DNA from: Syntrophaceae bacterium
Lineage (GTDB): Bacteria > Desulfobacterota > DTXE01
Direction: 5' to 3'
Assembly: GCA_012962595.1 (NCBI GenBank)
Contig: DTXE01000285.1
Coordinates: forward strand, 1 to 10,988
DNA: 10,988 bases
Below are positions 2-10,839 of this stretch, in pieces. Made by a program: the position numbers and the translations under genes. Below the pieces are notes generated by a model. It was not told the DNA's origin and did not search any database. It worked only from the letters and a program-made list of their open reading frames with translations. The first letter of the stretch is position 1. Every line of letters begins with the position of its first letter.

Positions 2-586
2 AAGGACACCAGGATATATGCCCCCATGGATGGCATAATAATCCAAAGGTTAGTTTCTGTGGGAGAGTATGTGCAAGCCGGAAATATACTTTTTAAAATG
101 GTTAGTATAAATCCTTTGAAGTTATTCTTCACCTTTCCAGAACGGTATAGTAGCTATCTCTCCGTGGGAAAAGAGGTTACGCTGGAGGTTAGAGCATATC
201 CGGGAGAGGTATTTAAGGGCACTATATACTTCATAAATCCCCAGATAGAGCCTAAGACCAGGGCTGTGCAGATGAAGGCATATGTCAAAAATGATGAAAT
301 GAAGCTTAAACCAGGGTTTTTTGCCGATGTGGACATGGTAGTGGATGTAAATGAAAGGGCCATGGTATTACCTCAGGAGGCAGTACTTTATAAAGGTGAT
401 AGAACCATTGTTTATACCATAGAGGATGGGATAGCCCATGAAAGACAGGTGGAAATAGGGGCGCAATTCGATGGAAAGATTGAAATCCTATGGGGCATAA
501 ACCCGGATAGCATTATAGCTACCAAAGGAAACTATCTGCTTGAAGACGGGAGAAAGGTAGCAGTTATGGAAGAGGCCACAGGATGA
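2..586 (+). CDS. RND efflux pump periplasmic adaptor (membrane fusion protein), C-terminal part
   Basis: This is the C-terminal portion of a membrane fusion protein that links an inner-membrane RND pump to an outer-membrane channel. The frame is open to the left edge, so the gene begins outside the window; the ATG at 26 is internal because the preceding codons continue the family pattern (IYAPMDG, the second half of the lipoyl/biotinyl-like domain that reads AP.DG.I in this family). After it come the beta-barrel domain (roughly LKLFFTFPERYSSYLSVGK to KPGFFADV) and the membrane-proximal domain (VLPQEAVL to the C-terminus). The PGFFADV segment matches the usual PGM.a.V of HlyD/AcrA adaptors. 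The stop overlaps the start of the pump gene (ATGA at 583-586), which indicates translational coupling and one operon. The substrate cannot be inferred. The N-terminal signal or lipoprotein region is not in the window. Confidence 0.9.
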   Translation, partial: KDTRIYAPMDGIIIQRLVSVGEYVQAGNILFKMVSINPLKLFFTFPERYSSYLSVGKEVTLEVRAYPGEVFKGTIYFINPQIEPKTRAVQMKAYVKNDEMKLKPGFFADVDMVVDVNERAMVLPQEAVLYKGDRTIVYTIEDGIAHERQVEIGAQFDGKIEILWGINPDSIIATKGNYLLEDGRKVAVMEEATG

Positions 587-3500
587 TTATTTGGGATACC
601 TGCATAAGAAGACCAGTGGCTACTATTGTAATGATGTCTGCCATAGTGGTATTTGGAATTATAGGGTTTCAAAGATTGGGACTAGACCTATTTCCCAGAG
701 TAGACTTACCTGTGGTAACTATTACCACATACTTACCCGGAGCTAGTCCTGAGACCATAGAATCCGATGTAACCGATCCTATAGAAGAACGGCTCAATGA
801 AATAGAAGGGGTTAAACACATAACATCGGTAAGTGCCTTAGGGGTCTCTCAAATTGTGGTGGAGTTTGTGTTAGAAAAGGATATAGATATTGCGGCTGAG
901 GATGTCCGGGCCAAGGTAAGTGTAGCCAGGCGAGAATTGCCTGAAGATGCAGAACCTCCCATTATAGATAAACTAGATATTGAAGCTATACCCATCATGT
1001 GGCTGGCGGTATCCGGTACCCGGTCTTATAAAGAGATAAGCCAGTATGCAGATAAGGTATTGAAAAGGTGCCTTGAAACAGTACCCGGGGTGGGCTATGT
1101 CCGTCTGGGCGGTTTCCGAGAAAAGGAGATCAAGATATGGCTTGATAGAGAGAAACTTAATGCCCACTCACTTACTGCTGCCGATGTGACCAATGCCCTT
1201 AAAAGAGAGCATATAGAGCTTCCAGCAGGGAGGTTAGAGACCGGTCCTAAGGAATTTCTGGTCAAAACCATGGGTGAATTTCAATCCCCATCTGATTTTA
1301 ACGAGTTAATCATTGCCTTTAGGAATGGAATTCCCATCAGAATTAAGGATGTAGGATATGCCGAGGAGGGATTTGAGGACATAGAAGAAGAATATCGAAC
1401 TCTGGCCCGTTTTAACGGAAAGTCTGCCACAGCATTAGGTATTTCCAAGCAAGCAGGTACCAATGCGGTTGCGGTAGCCGATGCGGTCAAAAAGCGACTG
1501 GCCGAACTTATACCCACCATGCCTTTGGGCATAAAGGTAGATATAGCTTACGATGCCTCTAAATTCATTAAGGCCTCTATTCGAGGGGTGCAAACTGATC
1601 TTTTGATAGGTGTTGTCCTGGTAGTTATAGTAATTGGATTTTTCTTAAGGAGTGTAGCCCCTACATTGGTTGCTGCTCTGGCTATTCCCACTTCCCTTAT
1701 TGGTACTTTTGCATTCATGTATTTCTTCCATTTCACAGCGAACAATCTTACTATGATTGCCTTATCTATTGCGGTTGGCTTGGTGGTAGACGATGCCATT
1801 GTGGTGCTGGAAAATATATTTCGCCATATGGAGGAAGGAAAGACCAGGATTGAGGCAGCTAGCTTTGGAACTAAAGAGATTGCCTTCGCAGTAGTTGCAG
1901 CTACCTCCTCTATATGTGCGGTATTCATTCCCGTAGCCTTTATGGGAGGGATAATCGGTAGGTTCTTCTTTCAATTCGGCGTGACGGTTGCGGTTGCTGT
2001 TACCCTGTCACTCCTGGTTTCCCTGACCTTAACCCCTATGGCCTGCTCCAGGATTCTCAAAACAGGGGGCAAGAAAAATCCTGTGTATAAATGGATCGAG
2101 AGAGGGCTGGTTGGTGTAAACTCCATATACCGAAGGCTGTTGAAATGGGCATTGGGGCATCGATTTACCATCTTGGGTATAGCTATGGGCATCTTTCTCA
2201 TAACCATCTTTCTGGGTAGCTTAATCAAGAAAGAGTTTATTCCCGCCCAGGATGAGAGCCACTTCCTTATCTATGCCAAGACCATGCAGGGGGCGAGCAT
2301 GGAATATACTGATTATTATTTCAGGCGGTTTGAACACATCCTAAGCAGAATCCCCGAGGTCCGAACCTATTTCACTGCTATAGGAACAGGGGATATTACA
2401 GATGTAAATGAGGGATATATGTTCATCAACATGTTAGATAGGGATAAGCGAGAGAGGACGCAACCCACGGTTATGACTGAGCTAAGAGGTAAATTAGGAA
2501 AGATTCCTGGTGTTATCACAGCGGTGAGTTATGTCCCTCGGGTGCAAATGGGGGGCTTAAGAGAATCTGATGTGAACTATGTGATAAAAGGACCGGATCT
2601 TAAGAAGCTTGAACAATACTCTGAGGAGATAAAGAGGCAGCTTAGGGCTATACCGGGGATTGTGGATGTAGACTCGGATCTGGAGCTTTCACGGCCAGAA
2701 ATCAGAATTTACGTGGATAGAGATAAGGCTGGGGATTTGGGGGTTAGTGTGGAGGCCATCTCCACCACGCTTCAGACACTGGTGGGCGGGGTGGATGTGG
2801 TTAAATATAAGAAAATGGGAGAGCGGTATGATGTGAATGTTAGGCTTATTAGGACCAAAAGAACGGCCCCTAAGGATATTCTTAATATTGCCGTTCCCAC
2901 AAAAGAAGGGAGGCTGATTTCTTTAAGCAATGTTATTGACATAGTACAAACCTCTGGGCCAGCCAATATTCGCAGGCGTGACAGGCAAAGGGCTGTTCAA
3001 ATCTATGCCAATGTGGAGCCGGGAATTAAAACTCAGGGAGAGGCCTTGGCGGATTTTGAGAGAATTGCAGCCAGTGTCCTTCCTAAAGGCCAGGGGTATA
3101 GTACTGCTGTTGCTGGGAGAACCGAAATCATGATGGAATCATTTGGTTATCTGTTCTTTGCTCTCTATTTGGCCATTATTATTATCTATATGGTTCTGGC
3201 TGCTCAATTTGAGAGTTTTATCCATCCCTTTACCGTTATGCTCTCCCTTCCCCTAAGCTTAATTGGAGCCTTTGGTGGTCTAGTTATTGCCAGGCAGACC
3301 TTAAATATCTTTAGCCTGATAGGATTTATCATGATGATGGGACTGGTAACCAAGAATGCCATACTTTTGGTGGATTATACTAATACCCTGAGATCAAGGG
3401 GTATGGAAAAGACAGAGGCCTTATTAACCGCAGGTCCTGTGAGACTTAGGCCTATTCTTATGACAGCCCTAACCACTATATTTGCAATGCTCCCCATAGC

Positions 3501-3672
3501 CTTAGGTTATAGCGAGGGTGGTGAAGCAAGGTCCCCCATGGGAGTGGCCGTGGTTGGTGGTATGACCACCTCCACCTTTCTTACCTTGGTGATTATTCCC
3601 GTAGTTTACTCTCTCCTTGATGACCTGGTGATAAAAATCAAAGATATGTTTGAGAAAAGGACTGTTAAATGA
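583..3672 (+). CDS. RND (HAE1/AcrB-like) multidrug efflux pump, inner-membrane subunit
   Basis: A 1029-residue proton-driven RND transporter, the usual full length for the AcrB/HAE1 family. It should sit in the inner membrane as a trimer and export hydrophobic or amphiphilic compounds through the adjacent adaptor and an outer-membrane channel not seen here. The N-terminus (IIWDTCIRRPVAT) has the typical FI.RP beginning, followed by a periplasmic porter domain (about 35-335), membrane segments TM2-6 (about 338-490), TM7 (about 528-548), a second porter domain, and TM8-12 (about 855-1010). Proton-relay residues are present: the DD pair at 403-404 in GLVVDDAIVVLEN and a lysine near 924 in GLVTKNAILLVDY. 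The start overlaps the adaptor stop by four bases, and a GGAAGAGG ribosome-binding site lies at 568-575, seven bases upstream. Drug versus lipid or other substrate cannot be told from sequence alone. Confidence 0.96.
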   Translation: MIIWDTCIRRPVATIVMMSAIVVFGIIGFQRLGLDLFPRVDLPVVTITTYLPGASPETIESDVTDPIEERLNEIEGVKHITSVSALGVSQIVVEFVLEKDIDIAAEDVRAKVSVARRELPEDAEPPIIDKLDIEAIPIMWLAVSGTRSYKEISQYADKVLKRCLETVPGVGYVRLGGFREKEIKIWLDREKLNAHSLTAADVTNALKREHIELPAGRLETGPKEFLVKTMGEFQSPSDFNELIIAFRNGIPIRIKDVGYAEEGFEDIEEEYRTLARFNGKSATALGISKQAGTNAVAVADAVKKRLAELIPTMPLGIKVDIAYDASKFIKASIRGVQTDLLIGVVLVVIVIGFFLRSVAPTLVAALAIPTSLIGTFAFMYFFHFTANNLTMIALSIAVGLVVDDAIVVLENIFRHMEEGKTRIEAASFGTKEIAFAVVAATSSICAVFIPVAFMGGIIGRFFFQFGVTVAVAVTLSLLVSLTLTPMACSRILKTGGKKNPVYKWIERGLVGVNSIYRRLLKWALGHRFTILGIAMGIFLITIFLGSLIKKEFIPAQDESHFLIYAKTMQGASMEYTDYYFRRFEHILSRIPEVRTYFTAIGTGDITDVNEGYMFINMLDRDKRERTQPTVMTELRGKLGKIPGVITAVSYVPRVQMGGLRESDVNYVIKGPDLKKLEQYSEEIKRQLRAIPGIVDVDSDLELSRPEIRIYVDRDKAGDLGVSVEAISTTLQTLVGGVDVVKYKKMGERYDVNVRLIRTKRTAPKDILNIAVPTKEGRLISLSNVIDIVQTSGPANIRRRDRQRAVQIYANVEPGIKTQGEALADFERIAASVLPKGQGYSTAVAGRTEIMMESFGYLFFALYLAIIIIYMVLAAQFESFIHPFTVMLSLPLSLIGAFGGLVIARQTLNIFSLIGFIMMMGLVTKNAILLVDYTNTLRSRGMEKTEALLTAGPVRLRPILMTALTTIFAMLPIALGYSEGGEARSPMGVAVVGGMTTSTFLTLVIIPVVYSLLDDLVIKIKDMFEKRTVK

Positions 3673-4715: not shown

Positions 4716-4841
4716 ATTGGTAAGAAATTTCCACTGGCAGATTTAGCTCAAAGATGAAAGGAAAATTGGAGACTGTGGTTGGCAATTACCTGAACTTCTG
4801 CTATATTGCCAAATTTATCTAAATTCTTAAAAGATATAGAA

Positions 4842-7190
4842 ATGGTAGCAAATAAAAACTGGCATAATATGGACGTGACAGAGGTCATGGCCTCTTTGAA
4901 ATCAAGTAGTCTGGGCTTGAGTCAAGAGGAAGCCAAACGCCGTCTGGTTGAGTTTGGCCCCAATGAGCTTATAGCAAAGAAAAGGGTGTCACCCTGGATT
5001 ATTTTCCTGCGACAATTTCAGAACTTCTTCATTATCATTCTGCTAGTAGCTGTGGTTATTTCCGCCATTTTAGGTGAGATAGTAGATTCTATGGTAATTG
5101 CCGTTATTGTTCTATTCGCTTGCGGTCTTGGTTTTATTCAGGAATACAGGGCAGAACGCGCCATGGAGGCCTTGAAAAGAATGGCAGCTCCCATGGCCCC
5201 GGTTATAAGAGATGGTGAGGAGATAGAGATAGCTTCAAGGGATTTAGTTCCTGGTGATGTAATCTCACTTAGGACAGGGGATCGCATTCCAGCTGATGCC
5301 CGCCTTATTGAGGCAATAAACCTTAAGATCGATGAGGTTCCCTTAACGGGTGAGTCTATTCCAGTAAACAAGGTTACCAGACATATCACGGAAGAGGTAG
5401 TGGTTGGTGACAGAAACAATATGGTTTATATGGGTACGGCAGCGGTTTATGGTAGAGGAAAGGCTATAGTAACCGCTACTGGTATGGCTACTGAGTTTGG
5501 CAAGATTGCGGGTATGCTCCAAGATGTGGAGGAAAGACCAACTCCTCTTCAGGAAAGCCTCGATCATTTGGGAAAGTGGATTGCCATAGGTGCAATTACC
5601 CTATGTGCATTACTAGCTATTTTGGGAATTATGAGGGGGCATAAGATCCTGGAGATGTTTATTTGGGGAGTGAGCTTGGCCATAGCAGCAGTACCTGAGG
5701 CCCTCCCAGCAGTAGTCACCATGGGGCTTGCTATAGGGGTGCAAAGAATGGTAAGGCGCCATGCACTTATTAAGAAGCTACCTGCTGTGGAAGCCTTGGG
5801 TTGCACTACAGTTATTTGTTCCGATAAAACCGGCACTTTGACACAAGATCAAATGACGGTGAGCAAGTTATATGCTAATGGGAGGATTTTTGATGTCACG
5901 GGAGTAGGTTATGAGCCAAGTGGACAATTTTACTCGGATGGTAAGGCCATACATCCTAGTGATGATCCTCATCTGAAAAGGCTCTTGCACATATGTTGTC
6001 TATGTAATGATGCTGGCCTAAAATCAGTTAACGGGGTTTGGGAGATAAAGGGAGACCCTACAGAAGGTGCATTATTGGTGGTGGCTGCTAAGGCAGGAAT
6101 ATGGCAGGATGAAATCTCTTGTCAATTTCCACGTGTCCGCGAAGTACCCTTCTCTTCAGAAAGAAAGAGAATGACTACTATCCATAAGGTTAGCCGAGGC
6201 AGATTTGCCTATTCTAAAGGGGCATGTGAAGTAATCCTTAATTCATGCACTCATATTTATAGAGATGGGAGAGAAAGGAGATTAGATAGCAGAGATATAG
6301 AGGTTATTCTTAATATCTTCCAAAATATGGCCAACAATGCCCTTCGAGTGTTAGCTGTGGCCTATAGACACCTTCCCACTGACATAGAGTTACCAGAAAC
6401 TGCTGAACAAGAGATGGTTTTTGTAGGCTTGGTAGGGATGATGGATCCCCCACGGGAGGAGGTAAAGGAGGGGATAAGACTGTGCCAGCGTGCAGGCATA
6501 AGATCTATAATGATAACTGGAGACCATAAGCTTACCGCCATGGCTATTGCTAAGAAGATAGGTCTCCTAAAAAGGGGTATTGCTTTAAGTGGATCCGAAC
6601 TCGACAAGCTGGGTGATGATGAACTGGATGAGATGGTGGAAAATATAGATGTTTATGCCAGGGTTTCCCCAGCTCACAAACTCAGGATAGTGAATGCCTT
6701 GACTAAAGATGGACATGTGGTAGCCATGACAGGAGATGGGATAAATGATGCCCCGGCCTTGAAGAAGGCAGACATCGGGATTGCCATGGGCGTAACAGGA
6801 ACAGATGTAACCAAGGAGGCTGCCGATATGGTGCTTACCGATGACAACTTTACCTCCATTGTAGCTGCTGTGGAGGAGGGAAGAGGTATTTTTGTCAATA
6901 TTAAAAAATATCTTGTGTATTTGCTTTCCTGTAATCTGGGTGAGATACTTTTGATGGCCGCTGCCATCCTAGTTGGTCCTCTCATGCAACTGCCGGCTGG
7001 TATTTTGCCCCTTGTAGCCGTTCAGATTCTATATGTAAATCTGGCCCCAGATGGCCTGCCGGCCATTGCATTATCTGTGGAGCCACCAGATATCGATATT
7101 ATGGATCGTCCGCCTCGACCCCGTCAAAATGGCATTTTTACTCCATCTGTACTGAAATTTCTTTTTGGGCTGGTATATGGACGGCCTTAG
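4842..7190 (+). CDS. P2A-type Ca2+-transporting ATPase, main part, frameshifted near its C-terminus
   Basis: An inner-membrane P-type ATPase that pumps Ca2+ or a related cation. Residues are numbered from the TTG at 4806, which is the alternative start; the ATG at 4842 is preferred because the family's N-terminal WH motif begins just after it, but neither start has a clear ribosome-binding site. The order is an N-terminal cation ATPase domain (WHNMD, GLSQEEAKRRL, FGPNEL), M1-M2 (about 73-112), actuator loop with TGES at 181-184, M3-M4 with PEALP at 298-301, phosphorylation motif DKTGT with Asp340, nucleotide-binding KGDPTEGAL at 415-423, TGDH at 571-574, hinge TGDGINDAP at 642-650, and M5-M6 (CNLGE; NLAPDG, where SERCA has NLVTDG). 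The frame ends in TAG at 7188-7190 at the start of M7; M7-M10 follow in another frame (7166-7540). A full protein would be about 900 residues, normal for the family. Confidence 0.93.
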   Translation: MVANKNWHNMDVTEVMASLKSSSLGLSQEEAKRRLVEFGPNELIAKKRVSPWIIFLRQFQNFFIIILLVAVVISAILGEIVDSMVIAVIVLFACGLGFIQEYRAERAMEALKRMAAPMAPVIRDGEEIEIASRDLVPGDVISLRTGDRIPADARLIEAINLKIDEVPLTGESIPVNKVTRHITEEVVVGDRNNMVYMGTAAVYGRGKAIVTATGMATEFGKIAGMLQDVEERPTPLQESLDHLGKWIAIGAITLCALLAILGIMRGHKILEMFIWGVSLAIAAVPEALPAVVTMGLAIGVQRMVRRHALIKKLPAVEALGCTTVICSDKTGTLTQDQMTVSKLYANGRIFDVTGVGYEPSGQFYSDGKAIHPSDDPHLKRLLHICCLCNDAGLKSVNGVWEIKGDPTEGALLVVAAKAGIWQDEISCQFPRVREVPFSSERKRMTTIHKVSRGRFAYSKGACEVILNSCTHIYRDGRERRLDSRDIEVILNIFQNMANNALRVLAVAYRHLPTDIELPETAEQEMVFVGLVGMMDPPREEVKEGIRLCQRAGIRSIMITGDHKLTAMAIAKKIGLLKRGIALSGSELDKLGDDELDEMVENIDVYARVSPAHKLRIVNALTKDGHVVAMTGDGINDAPALKKADIGIAMGVTGTDVTKEAADMVLTDDNFTSIVAAVEEGRGIFVNIKKYLVYLLSCNLGEILLMAAAILVGPLMQLPAGILPLVAVQILYVNLAPDGLPAIALSVEPPDIDIMDRPPRPRQNGIFTPSVLKFLFGLVYGRP
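7162..7169 (+). other. Frameshift site in the Ca2+ ATPase gene (TTTTTGGG)
   Basis: Before this point the ATPase reads in the frame of 4842; after it the family-consistent protein reads one frame back. Adding one T to the five-T run, or re-reading one base at TTT (7164-7166), joins KFLF to WAGIWTALVAFGVF without a break, exactly the expected M7. A lost base in a homopolymer, by mutation or by sequencing or assembly error, is the simplest explanation. T TTT GGG is not a good canonical -1 slippery heptamer because only the UUU codon can re-pair, so programmed frameshifting is less likely. Confidence 0.8.
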
Positions 7191-7540
7191 TAGCCTTTGG
7201 AGTTTTCGTTTGGGCTATTAACTCGGGCCGAAGCATCATTGAATCACAGTGCTTATGCTTTGTTACCTTGGTACTTGTGGAATTCTTTAATGCCCTCAAC
7301 TGTCGGTCTGACAGGTACTCTCTATTCAAATTGGGCCTTTTTACCAATAAATGGCTATTATTGGCAATAGCCTGGGAGTGTGTGGTGATAAGCTTGGTAG
7401 TCTATCTTCCATTTCTACAACATCCATTTCATACCTATGCCCTGAGTGCCATCGATTGGGTGGTAGCCATCCTCTGTGCTTCGACTATCTTTGTTGTAGT
7501 AGAGATATCCAAGTTTTTAGACTGGATTGGAGATCATTGA
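7166..7540 (+). pseudogene. C-terminal fragment (M7-M10) of the Ca2+ ATPase in the shifted frame
   Basis: This frame continues the ATPase: WAGIWTALVAFGVFVWAINSG (M7), then a segment ending VLVEFFNALNCRSD (M8), SLFKLGLFTNKWLLLAI (M9), and a last helix before VEISKFLDWIGDH. This matches the P2A cation ATPase C-terminal domain; NALNCRS..SLF is typical. The glutamate in VEFFNALN aligns with SERCA Glu908, a Ca2+ ligand of site I, so the ion site is complete only if the two frames are joined. A separate short gene starting at TTG 7268 could be predicted here, but it would begin in the middle of M8 and has no ribosome-binding site, so it is a fragment rather than an independent gene. Codons and family match show no decay (no further stops), which suggests the break is recent or an artefact. 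Confidence 0.85.
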
Positions 7541-7573: not shown

Positions 7574-8470
7574 CTACTGAATAGGGGAATACAATGGCTC
7601 TTCAGAAAGGGGTCTTTTCTTACGAATCTGAGAAATTAAAGCCAAGCTTAGCCATCCCACTAGAATTCCAGCTACTGCATCAGAAACATAGTGATACCGT
7701 CCATAGATTGTAGAGAGGATCATGAAAATAACCAGAGGAAACATAGGGTAATAAATCCTTTTTTCATATCTTCGCATCATTACTAGTGAAACTACTGTTG
7801 CAGCTATATGTGAACTGGGCATAGCACCCCCTCTGTAGGCGCCCATATCCATGAAATACGCATGGATTTGTGAAAAGGCATATCCCTTGAGAGGGGTTGT
7901 ATAAAGAGGGGCTAAGGCAAATCGTGGCCCTTCTACAGGAAAAAGTACGAAAATGATAAAAGAGATATAGTAGGCAAGCATAACATTTATAGAAAATTCA
8001 TGAAATTCCTGCTTTCTTCCAGGAATATAGAGGGCCAATGCAGGTATGATAATCATAAAATAATAGGAGAAATAAGAGTATACAAAAAACTCAGTCAACC
8101 AAGGCCTAGCGATATTTTGAAGCCAGACTGTGGGATAAACTCCAAATATGGCCAACTCCAATCCATTAACCAGATGATCAAAGGATTTTGTGAAGATGAT
8201 GTGTATCAATCCCTCTAGCTCTTCATAGAAGAAGAATAAGGAAATTAGCGCATAGGTATCCCGAAAGAAGTGGATAGCCTTATTTTTCGATTTAGCAGCC
8301 CAAGAGATGAGGATGATAACAACTACTACATAAAGGGCATGTGCCAAAAGGTAGATACCCCAGTGCTTCAATCCCTCATGAAAAATGGCTATGAGGATGC
8401 TTAGTATTCCTACATAGGCCAAGGTAAGGAAATCAATGGTTCTCAGTAACTTTATGTTTAAGCCTTTCAA
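7574..8470 (-). CDS. PAP2_3/AUR1-like integral membrane phosphatase or phosphotransferase
   Basis: A 298-residue polytopic membrane protein with about six or seven hydrophobic helices. The PAP2 catalytic signatures are GGAMPSSHIAA (214-224, His221) and YGRYHYVSDAVAG (256-268, His260 and Asp264). The classical KX6RP first motif is absent; its place holds PVEGPRFA (178-185), and the D..L...E..iFG..P pattern (about 98-113) precedes a helix starting at FFVYSYFSYYF. This is the PAP2_3 layout shared with fungal AUR1 inositol phosphorylceramide synthase, rather than a soluble-type acid phosphatase. Such enzymes transfer or remove phospho-headgroups on lipids at the outer face of the inner membrane. 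It is the last gene of a probable operon, 35 nt after the GNAT gene and behind serine palmitoyltransferase, so a ceramide or long-chain-base phosphate substrate is a reasonable inference, not shown. The start is TTG at 8470; the overlapping ATG at 8478 hits a stop after three codons. Confidence 0.85.
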   Translation of the reverse strand: MKGLNIKLLRTIDFLTLAYVGILSILIAIFHEGLKHWGIYLLAHALYVVVVIILISWAAKSKNKAIHFFRDTYALISLFFFYEELEGLIHIIFTKSFDHLVNGLELAIFGVYPTVWLQNIARPWLTEFFVYSYFSYYFMIIIPALALYIPGRKQEFHEFSINVMLAYYISFIIFVLFPVEGPRFALAPLYTTPLKGYAFSQIHAYFMDMGAYRGGAMPSSHIAATVVSLVMMRRYEKRIYYPMFPLVIFMILSTIYGRYHYVSDAVAGILVGWLSLALISQIRKKRPLSEEPLYSPIQ

Positions 8471-8505
8471 TTTTCCATGCCTAGATTTTGAGAAATAATA
8501 TTAGC

Positions 8506-9633
8506 TCATATTGCCTTTTCAAAAATCCGGTACTTCTTATAAAGTTGGGCATTTAGCCTTTTTCTCAAGACATTATGGACCGCTGTATTATCTTCCAATA
8601 TCCAAGAGATTTCCCATTTGAGATATCCGTTTTTTTTAGCTGCTTCTGCCAGCTTTACATACAGCAGCAGATCTAAACCTAGGTGTCTATATTTTTCAAT
8701 AATTCCCAGGATTAATGCCCGAAAGACATCTATTTTTTTGTAGTAATAAAACCACTTGAAAATCCCCCAGGGAAAGAGCCTTCCATTAAGCCTTTTTAAA
8801 ACCTGATTAATATCAGGCACCGTTAAAGTAAAACCAACTGCCTTACCATCTAACTCCGCAATGAGGGCTAGGTCAGGGATAACTATCTTTTTTAGCTCCT
8901 TGCCCATATACCAGAACTCCTCATCGGTCATAGGAACAAATCCCCAATTATTACCCCAGGCAGAATTATATATTTCTCTCACCGTTTGGGCTTCATTTTC
9001 AAAGTTTTTTAAATTTACAGGCCTCACCCTAAGGTTTCTTCGAGATAAAACCCTCTCAATCTTCTCTTCCAATTTACCTTTCTCATAGCGGCTGAAATCT
9101 ATAAAGTAGGCATAAAGATCCTTTACTTTTTGAAAACCATAGTTTTCCAGATAATTTCTGTAATATGAGGGGTTATAAGGTGTCATAAATACCGGGGGAG
9201 AATCAAAGCCCTCTATAAGCAACCCACACTCATGATTGGTAGAAAGATTCATGGGGCCTTGGATTGTCTCCATCCCCATTTCCTTGAGCCACTTTTCAAC
9301 ACTTTGAAGGAGGGTATAGGCTACAGAGTAATCCGGGAGACATTCAAAAAGTCCGAAAAATCCCACCTTTTGGTGGTAATAATTGATATACTGGTCATCA
9401 ACCACGGCTGCAATCCGGCCCAGTATCTCCTTATCCTTATGAGCTAGAAACAACTTCACCTGGGCGTGATGGAAAAATGGATTTATCTTGGGATTGAGGA
9501 ACCTTTTACGCTCCGAGATAAGGGGGGGTACCCAGTAAGGATCTCCCCGATATACCTTCCATGGGAACTTGATAAATAAACTTTCCTGTTTTCTGGTACT
9601 TACTGGAACAACCTGGATTTCGCCGGTAGCCAT
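8506..9633 (-). CDS. YghO-like GNAT-fold acyltransferase, candidate bacterial ceramide synthase (bCerS-like)
   Basis: A 375-residue soluble or peripheral protein. The N-terminal half has the family signatures DPYWVPPL (31-38), NPFFHHAQVKLFLAHKD (51-67), LGRIAAVVD (71-79) and GFFGLFE (91-97), then GPMNLSTNHECGLLIEGF and PYNPSYY. The C-terminal half is GNAT-like, with LGIIEKYRHLGLDLLL (309-324) in the place of the acyl-donor-binding loop and SWILEDNTAVHNVLRK (343-358). This resembles the YghO family, to which, from memory, the Caulobacter ceramide synthase (bCerS, a GNAT protein that N-acylates a long-chain base) belongs. It starts 24 nt after the serine palmitoyltransferase gene on the same strand, which makes N-acylation of the long-chain base its most likely job. 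YghO members also occur in bacteria without sphingolipids, so the substrate is inferred from context. The start is ATG at 9633 with only a weak ribosome-binding site. Confidence 0.8.
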   Translation of the reverse strand: MATGEIQVVPVSTRKQESLFIKFPWKVYRGDPYWVPPLISERKRFLNPKINPFFHHAQVKLFLAHKDKEILGRIAAVVDDQYINYYHQKVGFFGLFECLPDYSVAYTLLQSVEKWLKEMGMETIQGPMNLSTNHECGLLIEGFDSPPVFMTPYNPSYYRNYLENYGFQKVKDLYAYFIDFSRYEKGKLEEKIERVLSRRNLRVRPVNLKNFENEAQTVREIYNSAWGNNWGFVPMTDEEFWYMGKELKKIVIPDLALIAELDGKAVGFTLTVPDINQVLKRLNGRLFPWGIFKWFYYYKKIDVFRALILGIIEKYRHLGLDLLLYVKLAEAAKKNGYLKWEISWILEDNTAVHNVLRKRLNAQLYKKYRIFEKAI

Positions 9634-9657
9634 TAAACCATTCTCGCTACAGTTATC

Positions 9658-10839
9658 TCAGATGATTCCAGCAGCCTTTCCCGCCTTTTCAAAAACAGTA
9701 AGTGCCTTTTCTAGATGCTCTGGTTTATGGGTAGCCACCAAACTTACGCGGAGGAGGGATTGTTCTGGTGGGACGGCAGGGGCGATCATGGGGTTAACGT
9801 ATACACCTCCTTCAAAGAGTATATTCCAAATAAAGAAGGTCTTTTCTAAGTCACCTATGGTAACGGGGATAATGGGAGTTAGTCCATCTGCCACGACAAA
9901 TCCAAGGTTCTTGAGCTCATTTCTCATTATCTTGGCGTTATGCAAAAGATTTTCTCTTCTCTCCGGTTCATTCTCTATAACATCTAGGGCTGCAAGTACA
10001 GCTGCTACCGAGGCAGGAGGCATGCTGGCACTGAAGATCAAAGATCTTCCATGATGTTTTATGAAATCCAGCACCCTCTCTTCACCGGCTATCATCCCTC
10101 CAATGGAGGCAAGGGATTTGCTAAAAGTTATCATAACCAGATCCACCTCGTTATTTAGACCAAAATGCTCAAGGGTTCCCCTCCCATTTTTTCCCAGTAT
10201 CCCTATACCGTGGGCATCATCCACCATTATTCTAGCCCCATATCTTTGACATGTTTTCGTCATATCAGGCAACTCAGCTATATCGCCTCCCACACTGTAC
10301 ACCCCTTCCACTATCACCAGTTTTCCCTGATTATCGGGAGAGGACTCAAGAAGCCTAGCTAAATCTTCCACATCATTGTGTTTAAACTTTATTACCTTGC
10401 CATAGGATAGACGACACCCATCCACAATACTGGCATGGTCATCTCTATCGATAAACACCATGTCACGTCTTCCCACAAGACTAGAAATAGTTCCCAGATT
10501 TGTCTGATATCCTGTAGTGAAAACTAGAGCGGCTTCCTTATTTAGAAATTTTGCAAGTTTCTCTTCCAATTCTAGGTGAATATCGAGGGTGCCATTAAGA
10601 AATCTTGAACCTGTACACCCCGATCCATATTTTTGAATGGCTTTTTGGGCAGCTTCCTTAAGCTTAGGATGGCTAGTCAGACCCAGATAATTGTTGGACC
10701 CCAACATAATTAGCTTCTTTCCATCAATTGTTACCTCTGCATCTTGTTCAGACTCCACTGCCTTAAAATAGGGATAGTATCCAGATTCTCTAGCTACTTT
10801 GGCCCGAATATAATTATAACACCTTGCGAACAGGTCCAT
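9658..10839 (-). CDS. spt: Serine palmitoyltransferase (alpha-oxoamine synthase family)
   Basis: A 393-residue PLP enzyme expected to condense L-serine with a long-chain acyl thioester to give 3-ketosphinganine, the committed step of sphingolipid synthesis in the cytoplasm. Motifs in order are MLGSNNYLGL (45-54), GCTGSRFLNGTLDIHLELEE (74-93), DDHASIVDG (133-141, His135 stacking on PLP), VDDAHG (206-211, Asp207 and His210), TFSKSLASIGG (238-248, Lys241 as the PLP Schiff-base lysine) and LLRVSLVATH (362-371, Arg364 for carboxylate binding). The key positions keep the same spacing as in Sphingomonas serine palmitoyltransferase (His159, Asp231, His234, Lys265, all offset by 24). The GSRFLNGT.DIH.ELE block favours this enzyme over BioF or 2-amino-3-ketobutyrate CoA ligase. 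The ATG at 10839 has AAGGGG at 10852-10847, seven bases upstream. It is the first gene of an operon with the GNAT and PAP2_3 genes. Confidence 0.9.
   Translation of the reverse strand: MDLFARCYNYIRAKVARESGYYPYFKAVESEQDAEVTIDGKKLIMLGSNNYLGLTSHPKLKEAAQKAIQKYGSGCTGSRFLNGTLDIHLELEEKLAKFLNKEAALVFTTGYQTNLGTISSLVGRRDMVFIDRDDHASIVDGCRLSYGKVIKFKHNDVEDLARLLESSPDNQGKLVIVEGVYSVGGDIAELPDMTKTCQRYGARIMVDDAHGIGILGKNGRGTLEHFGLNNEVDLVMITFSKSLASIGGMIAGEERVLDFIKHHGRSLIFSASMPPASVAAVLAALDVIENEPERRENLLHNAKIMRNELKNLGFVVADGLTPIIPVTIGDLEKTFFIWNILFEGGVYVNPMIAPAVPPEQSLLRVSLVATHKPEHLEKALTVFEKAGKAAGII

Follow-up and report, generated by a model that had tools for sequence, protein, structure and literature searches.

A serine palmitoyltransferase, ceramide synthase, and AUR1-like gene cluster in the Thermodesulfobacteriota: probable core of a ceramide pathway with a possible phosphoinositol head

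Three closely spaced genes on contig DTXE01000285.1 of a Syntrophaceae bacterium (assembly GCA_012962595.1) raise the question of whether this organism makes ceramide-based lipids and, if so, which head group these carry. The contig (10,988 nt, analyzed at full length and referred to as the window; C285) belongs to a 2.09-Mb draft genome of 564 contigs that is 91% complete. An RpoB fragment on contig C171 shows about 70% identity to the nearest relatives with an organism name, which are labeled Thermodesulfobacteriota, Deltaproteobacteria, or, more loosely, Pseudomonadota/Proteobacteria (two further relatives are closer, at 91% and 81%), and none of the genomes compared was closer than the phylum level; the organism thus most likely represents a deep lineage of Thermodesulfobacteriota. 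The original prediction had read the genes as a serine palmitoyltransferase (SPT), a bacterial ceramide synthase (CerS)-like GNAT protein, and an AUR1-like PAP2_3 membrane protein, acting in this order. The three open reading frames (ORFs), their common minus strand, and the gaps of 24 nt (SPT/GNAT) and 35 nt (GNAT/PAP2) agreed with the ORF list, and all three assignments were upheld by sequence, tree, fold, and linkage. We put the probability that the genes form the central part of a bacterial route to ceramide lipids, with an AUR1-like last step for which phosphoinositol is the likeliest head group, at roughly 0.6. The SPT would convert serine and an acyl thioester into 3-oxo-sphinganine, which the GNAT protein would N-acylate; a CerR-like reductase encoded on another contig (C225) would reduce the 3-oxo group, either ahead of the acylation or following it; and the AUR1-like protein, using a His-His-Asp mechanism of phosphoryl transfer, would take a phospho-head group off a glycerophospholipid and place it on the 1-hydroxyl of (dihydro)ceramide. 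The cluster is real and mostly of the ordinary ceramide type; it had been wrongly read as complete, and its last enzyme is the point of interest.

Gene 1 almost certainly encodes an SPT, as judged from its sequence. It is 51.6% identical to the Sphingobacterium SPT (3a2b) over 374 residues, and its ten best solved relatives are bacterial SPTs (304–444 bits), the Sphingobacterium enzyme (444 bits) being nearer than that of Sphingomonas (∼307 bits). Further down follow two entries named BioF/KBL (301–302 bits), KBL (at most 257 bits), cysteate acyltransferase (244 bits), BioF (at most 218 bits; a BioF-like entry, 228 bits), and eukaryotic SPT subunits (at most 198 bits). The SPT context motifs TFSKS, with Lys241, and DxHAS, with His135, are present, and both residues, like GSRFLNGT (77–84), sit where they had originally been placed. 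In this enzyme family, the lysine at this position binds pyridoxal 5′-phosphate (PLP), and the histidine is the stacking one. Nearly all SPT-side rows of a 112-row alignment read T[FY]SK[ST], as opposed to TFGK or TLGK in the BioF and KBL rows. A careful tree of 32 rows picked from the 112 placed gene 1 in a 25-row SPT group (support 100/100, branch 0.67), apart from the BioF and KBL rows, without settling its branching position inside that group. Grouping with BioF or KBL had been named beforehand as the outcome that would contradict the assignment; forcing gene 1 together with two BioF proteins, or with five KBL-type rows, cost 72 log units each (p-AU 0.0006 and 0.0016, respectively, in the approximately unbiased [AU] test), and the tree and both separate tests rule out either identity. 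A joint constraint of gene 1, BioF, and KBL gave p 0.31; being ill-posed for the BioF/KBL question, it was replaced by the separate tests, and it means only that gene 1 may be the first branch on the SPT side. The genome's own bioF lies elsewhere (449 bits to TIGR00858, cut-off 426), by eye in a run bioB-bioF-bioC-bioD.

It is improbable that gene 1 takes another amino acid (alanine, glycine, or cysteate) and leads to 1-deoxy or sulfonolipid-type products. Its choice of amino acid is not readable from the present data, and Black Sea layers in which Desulfobacterota with SPT-like genes are abundant contain 1-deoxyceramides and sulfono-1-deoxyceramides (PMC11334938). However, the solved cysteate acyltransferase is distant from gene 1 compared with the Sphingobacterium SPT (bit scores above), and a 1-deoxy or 1-sulfono product would offer no 1-hydroxyl to a head-group transferase.

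Gene 2 is very likely a ceramide synthase. Over 98–100% of the query, it shares 33–37% identity with E. coli YghO and with genes from the SPT clusters of Sphingomonas and Roseomonas. The latter two, plasmid-borne reference clusters, hold acyl carrier protein, SPT, LptF, and LptG; similar gene surroundings have been described for Caulobacter cerS (PMC11324152), and E. coli yghO and CC_1154 have together been given as an acyltransferase gene (PMC9386255). The protein passes the Pfam GNAT cut-off (30 vs 20.7 bits), and its profile yielded weak, mostly C-terminal acetyltransferase matches among solved structures (best E 0.003). With 6042 matches among the 8000 candidates scored, the wider GNAT family is so large that function is not deducible from family membership alone. 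In one locus (L004, 7197–10573), a PAP2_3 gene behind the SPT is flanked by two CerS-family genes. Because of the width of the family and this second copy, it is linkage that counts for gene 2.

Linkage was surveyed from both ends of the cluster. The survey from SPT comprised 93 SPT-clade loci: the best 80 of 460 named genome contigs and 13 genomes of the same phylum (18 matched genomes minus the own one and the weaker G032, G043, G055, and G060; a quick 112-row tree places G043 and G055 on its SPT side, and second copies in G009 and G083 were also left out). These loci were picked by likeness to gene 1 and thus do not sample SPT genes at random. In 39 of the 93, a CerS gene lay within 3 kb of the SPT, and in 38 it followed the SPT directly; of the 80 loci whose downstream sequence spans 1.2 kb or more, 37 had one. 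CerS-bearing loci with enough flank contained a CerR-like epimerase within 3 kb in 30/31 cases and a PAP2_3 gene within 4 kb in 12/31, as compared with 4/31 (epimerase) and 0/31 (PAP2) in loci without CerS that had both 2.5-kb flanks. In the opposite direction, the window PAP2 protein was searched against 395 genomes of the phylum, with ∼1.5 kb fetched on each side, and was matched at 42 places in 37 genomes; SPT or CerS was nearby in 26 of the 41 places outside the own genome (CerS in 25, SPT in 18). Adjoining SPT and CerS genes with a reductase beside them also occur on Streptomyces, Rubrobacter, and Aureispira plasmids. The SPT-CerS-PAP2 gene order exceeds chance, and the lack of conservation that had been named as a refutation did not materialize (38/93 and 26/41), so that the idea of one pathway gains support from both surveys. 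That the three genes are unrelated neighbors is extremely improbable: PAP2_3 proteins are indeed common, 11 of the 14 control genomes having a match, but linkage was found in both search directions. The genes may form a single transcript; in a promoter and terminator scan, site numbers were not above those of shuffled sequences.

Two further gene arrangements were seen among the SPT loci. Twelve loci, mostly of Gram-positive lineages (L019, L021, L025, L035, L037, L079, and six others), carry an SPT-clade gene without CerS and with an adjoining gene that by eye resembles short-chain dehydrogenases, perhaps another ceramide or long-chain-base route. On a plasmid of Streptomyces sp. NBC_01001 (L142, 3763–8289), SPT-like, CerS-like, epimerase, and condensation-domain protein genes form one run.

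The reductase step had been omitted from the reaction order of the original prediction, which had proposed an operon shorter than the Caulobacter one. With a profile of six neighboring epimerases, a single match in the own genome stood well clear of all others (413 bits vs 139 for the next), at bases 5–979 of contig C225, within an ORF (2–982) whose frame opens at base 2. This CerR-like gene shares 29–35% identity with the reductases found in other SPT clusters. As the genome thus does have a CerR-like gene, on a separate contig, and as the window stops 149 nt before the SPT, it is the contig that is short, not the pathway, and operon size should not be judged from a contig ending at the first gene. 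In three loci of the same phylum (L083, L104, and L106), the reductase is divergent from the SPT, with 306–460 nt between the matches; by this spacing, the C225 gene would sit just past the window end. Because no exact overlap of at least 10 nt was found between the window end and the C225 end, the junction can only be proposed. In Caulobacter, the order of reduction and acylation is still debated. CerR is reported to act there in the periplasm and, in its authors' model, after N-acylation (PMC11087976).

Gene 3 likely acts on ceramide, as far as its sequence and predicted fold tell. It passes the PAP2_3 cut-off (63.9 vs 27 bits) and contains the His-His-Asp residues of the PAP2 motifs; H221, H260, and D264 are invariant in a 65-row alignment. 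AUR1 heads the profile search, and the AUR1 fold extends over the whole chain, the structure alignment taking in the N-terminal helices. Identity to yeast AUR1, the inositol phosphorylceramide synthase, is 13%, and where AUR1 has FPAAPPWY, gene 3 has FPVEGPRF. The protein could instead be a lipid phosphatase, acting for example on a phosphorylated sphingolipid or on undecaprenyl diphosphate, and no transferase at all. This is unlikely in view of the AUR1 match, which covers the entire chain at higher Z. Motif wording points the same way: gene 3 reads PSSH, AUR1 PSLH, and a Saprospiraceae protein encoded beside SPT (278 bits to NF052609, cut-off 480) PSMH, as opposed to PSGH in the 21 other genomes read, a contrast that speaks for a transferase and is suggestive only.

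Which head group would be transferred is best approached through the inositol genes. Contig C499 of the own genome carries the gene of a full-length inositol-phosphate synthase (346 bits to PF07994), the best solved relative of which (7nwr, 525 bits) we take to be the Bacteroides enzyme. The genome also encodes, on contig C7, a CDP-alcohol transferase whose nearest models are archaetidylinositol-phosphate synthase and phosphatidylinositol (PI)-phosphate synthase, and whose best solved relatives are CDP-diacylglycerol-inositol transferases (49 bits). PI as the donor for every SPT-adjacent PAP2_3 protein was considered and rejected, as a table of 14 genomes listed a full-length synthase in only 2 of the 8 with PAP2_3 in the SPT cluster; this result led to a split of the PAP2_3 proteins by motif. 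Two types exist within the phylum, and a quick tree separates window-type from neighbor-type proteins. Type 1 combines PSSH with GRYHYV[ST]D (the window, G037, G073, G106, G135, G162, and G294); type 2 has PSGH and mostly [LC]RYHY. Six of the 7 type-1 genomes have a full-length synthase, compared with 50 of the 395 genomes overall. With an E-value cut, it is present in 6/6, for which the random probability is 3e-6, or 0.002 when counted as three families, the cut having been set after the data were seen. A genome under this cut (G033) combines PSSH with CRYHY, a mixed motif; its PAP2 gene is in the SPT cluster, and it has a synthase. In G037 and G073, SPT, CerS, and CerR are present elsewhere than the type-1 PAP2 gene. 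In five Bacteroidota loci (L032, L055, L070, L074, and L080), CerS and the reductase separate SPT from the synthase, which follows 2–2.5 kb downstream; L055 has, in addition, an AUR1-like gene ahead of SPT. Since synthase and PI(-phosphate)-synthase-like genes are present, and since most type-1 genomes carry the synthase, inositol is the most likely head, although the chance that phosphoinositol is in fact the ceramide head group can be put no higher than even on these sequence data. As a separate observation, two type-1 genomes (G106 and G135; loci L204 and L208) have second, type-2-like PAP2_3 genes (PSGH/CRYHY).

A different head group, such as phosphoglycerol or phosphoethanolamine from another glycerophospholipid, is a minor possibility. 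In view of the 2/8 genomes mentioned above, another donor must serve the remaining cluster-encoded PAP2_3 proteins, if these are transferases, and the own genome has a PgsA-like gene (99 bits, cut-off 109). On the other hand, the motif type of gene 3 goes with the synthase, and the search for CDP-alcohol transferases in the own genome found just two, the PgsA-like and the inositol-phosphate-lipid-synthase-like proteins.

Several results weigh against a ceramide pathway ending in phosphoinositol transfer. The best NCBIfam model of gene 1, NF047600 (SerpalmtaseCFB equivalog), scored 553 bits, below its cut-off of 640, so that the gene is filed under SPT in the wide sense, outside the equivalog. 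Thirty-one SPT-clade loci with both 2.5-kb flanks have no CerS. Gene 3 gave no match at E ≤0.1 to NF052609, the phosphoinositol dihydroceramide synthase family. The PI(-phosphate)-synthase-like protein falls below both model cut-offs (138 bits, cut-off 180; 81 bits, cut-off 170). SPT or CerS lies beside only 1 of the 6 other window-type PAP2 genes (a CerS in that case) versus 25 of the 35 remaining matches. The SPT-neighboring PAP2_3 proteins of relatives are mostly of the other motif type, and a full-length synthase is lacking from all 30 further PAP2-positive genomes (type 2 by motif in 21, motif unread in 9), so that their PAP2 proteins cannot depend on home-made inositol. Conversely, 44 of the 50 synthase genomes lack a type-1 PAP2 gene at the cut used; the synthase must therefore have other uses, too. 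The exceptional type-1 genome, G294, has its PAP2 gene beside CerS and a CerR-like gene and only a partial synthase match (53 bits). Finally, the motif split was drawn after the scores had been seen, and the seven genomes represent four families, one of which accounts for four of the genomes.

The locus thus resembles two known systems in part. With Caulobacter crescentus (spt, cerS, and cerR; CC_1162, CC_1154, and CC_1164), it shares the enzyme families, namely, SPT, GNAT ceramide synthase, and epimerase-like reductase; unlike there, neither acyl carrier protein nor acyl-ACP synthetase was seen by the SPT in the visible stretch, which is cut upstream, and the putative head-group enzyme belongs to PAP2_3. 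With Bacteroides thetaiotaomicron (BT_0870 and BT_1522–1526), it has SPT, an AUR1-like protein, and inositol-phosphate synthase in common; there, normal inositol ceramide requires both BT_1522 and BT_1526 (PMC9246714 and PMC8791184); gene 3, in contrast, is outside the BT_1522 model family NF052609, and here SPT, CerS, and PAP2 lie together, with the reductase, synthase, and PI(-phosphate)-synthase-like genes on three other contigs. By sequence, the three proteins are members of SPT in the wide sense, the CerS family, and PAP2_3, and the overall likeness is to Caulobacter-type ceramide synthesis joined to a head-group step of the Bacteroides or fungal type. The ceramide core is already known, as SPT/CerS/CerR sets from the Black Sea have been reported in about 40 phyla, Desulfobacterota included (PMC11334938). 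The core is the same there; a PAP2 partner is not among the set members in the available text, in which inositol words had 0 matches. In the available papers, inositol sphingolipids are linked with eukaryotes and Bacteroidota and, tentatively, with Novosphingobium. Among the matches listed in open-access literature, none reported inositol-ceramide genes in Thermodesulfobacteriota; within that literature, the AUR1-like partner and the inositol link would be new for this phylum. Our wider proposal is tentative and somewhat less likely to be true than not: a phosphoinositol-ceramide pathway may exist in a deep lineage of the phylum, using an enzyme of the AUR1 fold that is not of the BT_1522 family, this fold having been recruited several times to bacterial ceramide clusters and its motif type following inositol supply (PSSH with synthase, PSGH without). 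If true, inositol sphingolipids occur in a further phylum, and PAP2_3 genes beside SPT and CerS across it are head-group enzymes awaiting assignment that can be tested singly.

Table 1. Positions of the three genes, their motifs, and the truncated upstream region in the window.
Feature	Position	Strand	Basis or remark
Serine palmitoyltransferase (SPT; alpha-oxoamine synthase), 393 aa	9658..10839	-	ORF list, Pfam Aminotran_1_2
CerS-family N-acyltransferase (bCerS; GNAT), 375 aa	8506..9633	-	ORF list, one Pfam GNAT domain
AUR1-like PAP2_3 membrane protein, 298 aa, putative ceramide head-group transferase	7574..8470	-	ORF list, Pfam PAP2_3
PLP-binding Lys241 codon, within TFSKS	10117..10119	-	residue position computed
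PAP2 stretch FPVEGPRF, residues 177–184	7919..7942	-	P178 and P182 invariant (65-row alignment)
PAP2 motif AMPSSHIA, residues 216–223, presumed catalytic His221	7802..7825	-	P218, S219, and H221 invariant (65 rows)
PAP2 motif GRYHYVSDAVAG, residues 257–268, presumed catalytic His260 and Asp264	7667..7702	-	H260 and D264 invariant (65 rows)
SPT upstream region, cut by contig end	10840..10988		CerR-like gene expected divergent from here; sits on contig C225

The PAP2 gene starts with TTG, which leaves its exact start uncertain, and no further gene is visible in the 149 nt between SPT and the contig end. On the 3′ side of the PAP2 gene, a cation-ATPase gene lies on the opposite strand (Pfam match on the C-terminal part, 7268–7540); by eye, it is broken into two frames (4806–7190 and 7268–7540) by a frameshift that is either real or made by the assembly. 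Farther away on the plus strand, positions 583–3672, together with an adaptor at 2–586, look by eye like a resistance-nodulation-division (RND) pump of the HAE1 type. Relatives of this pump were present in 10 of 100 loci searched: they share the SPT-cluster loci L003, L005, L006, and L011 (46–55% identity), adjoin a type-1 PAP2 gene in L210–L213 (32–35% identity), and occur as weaker matches in L032 and L053. The window pump might export the lipid.

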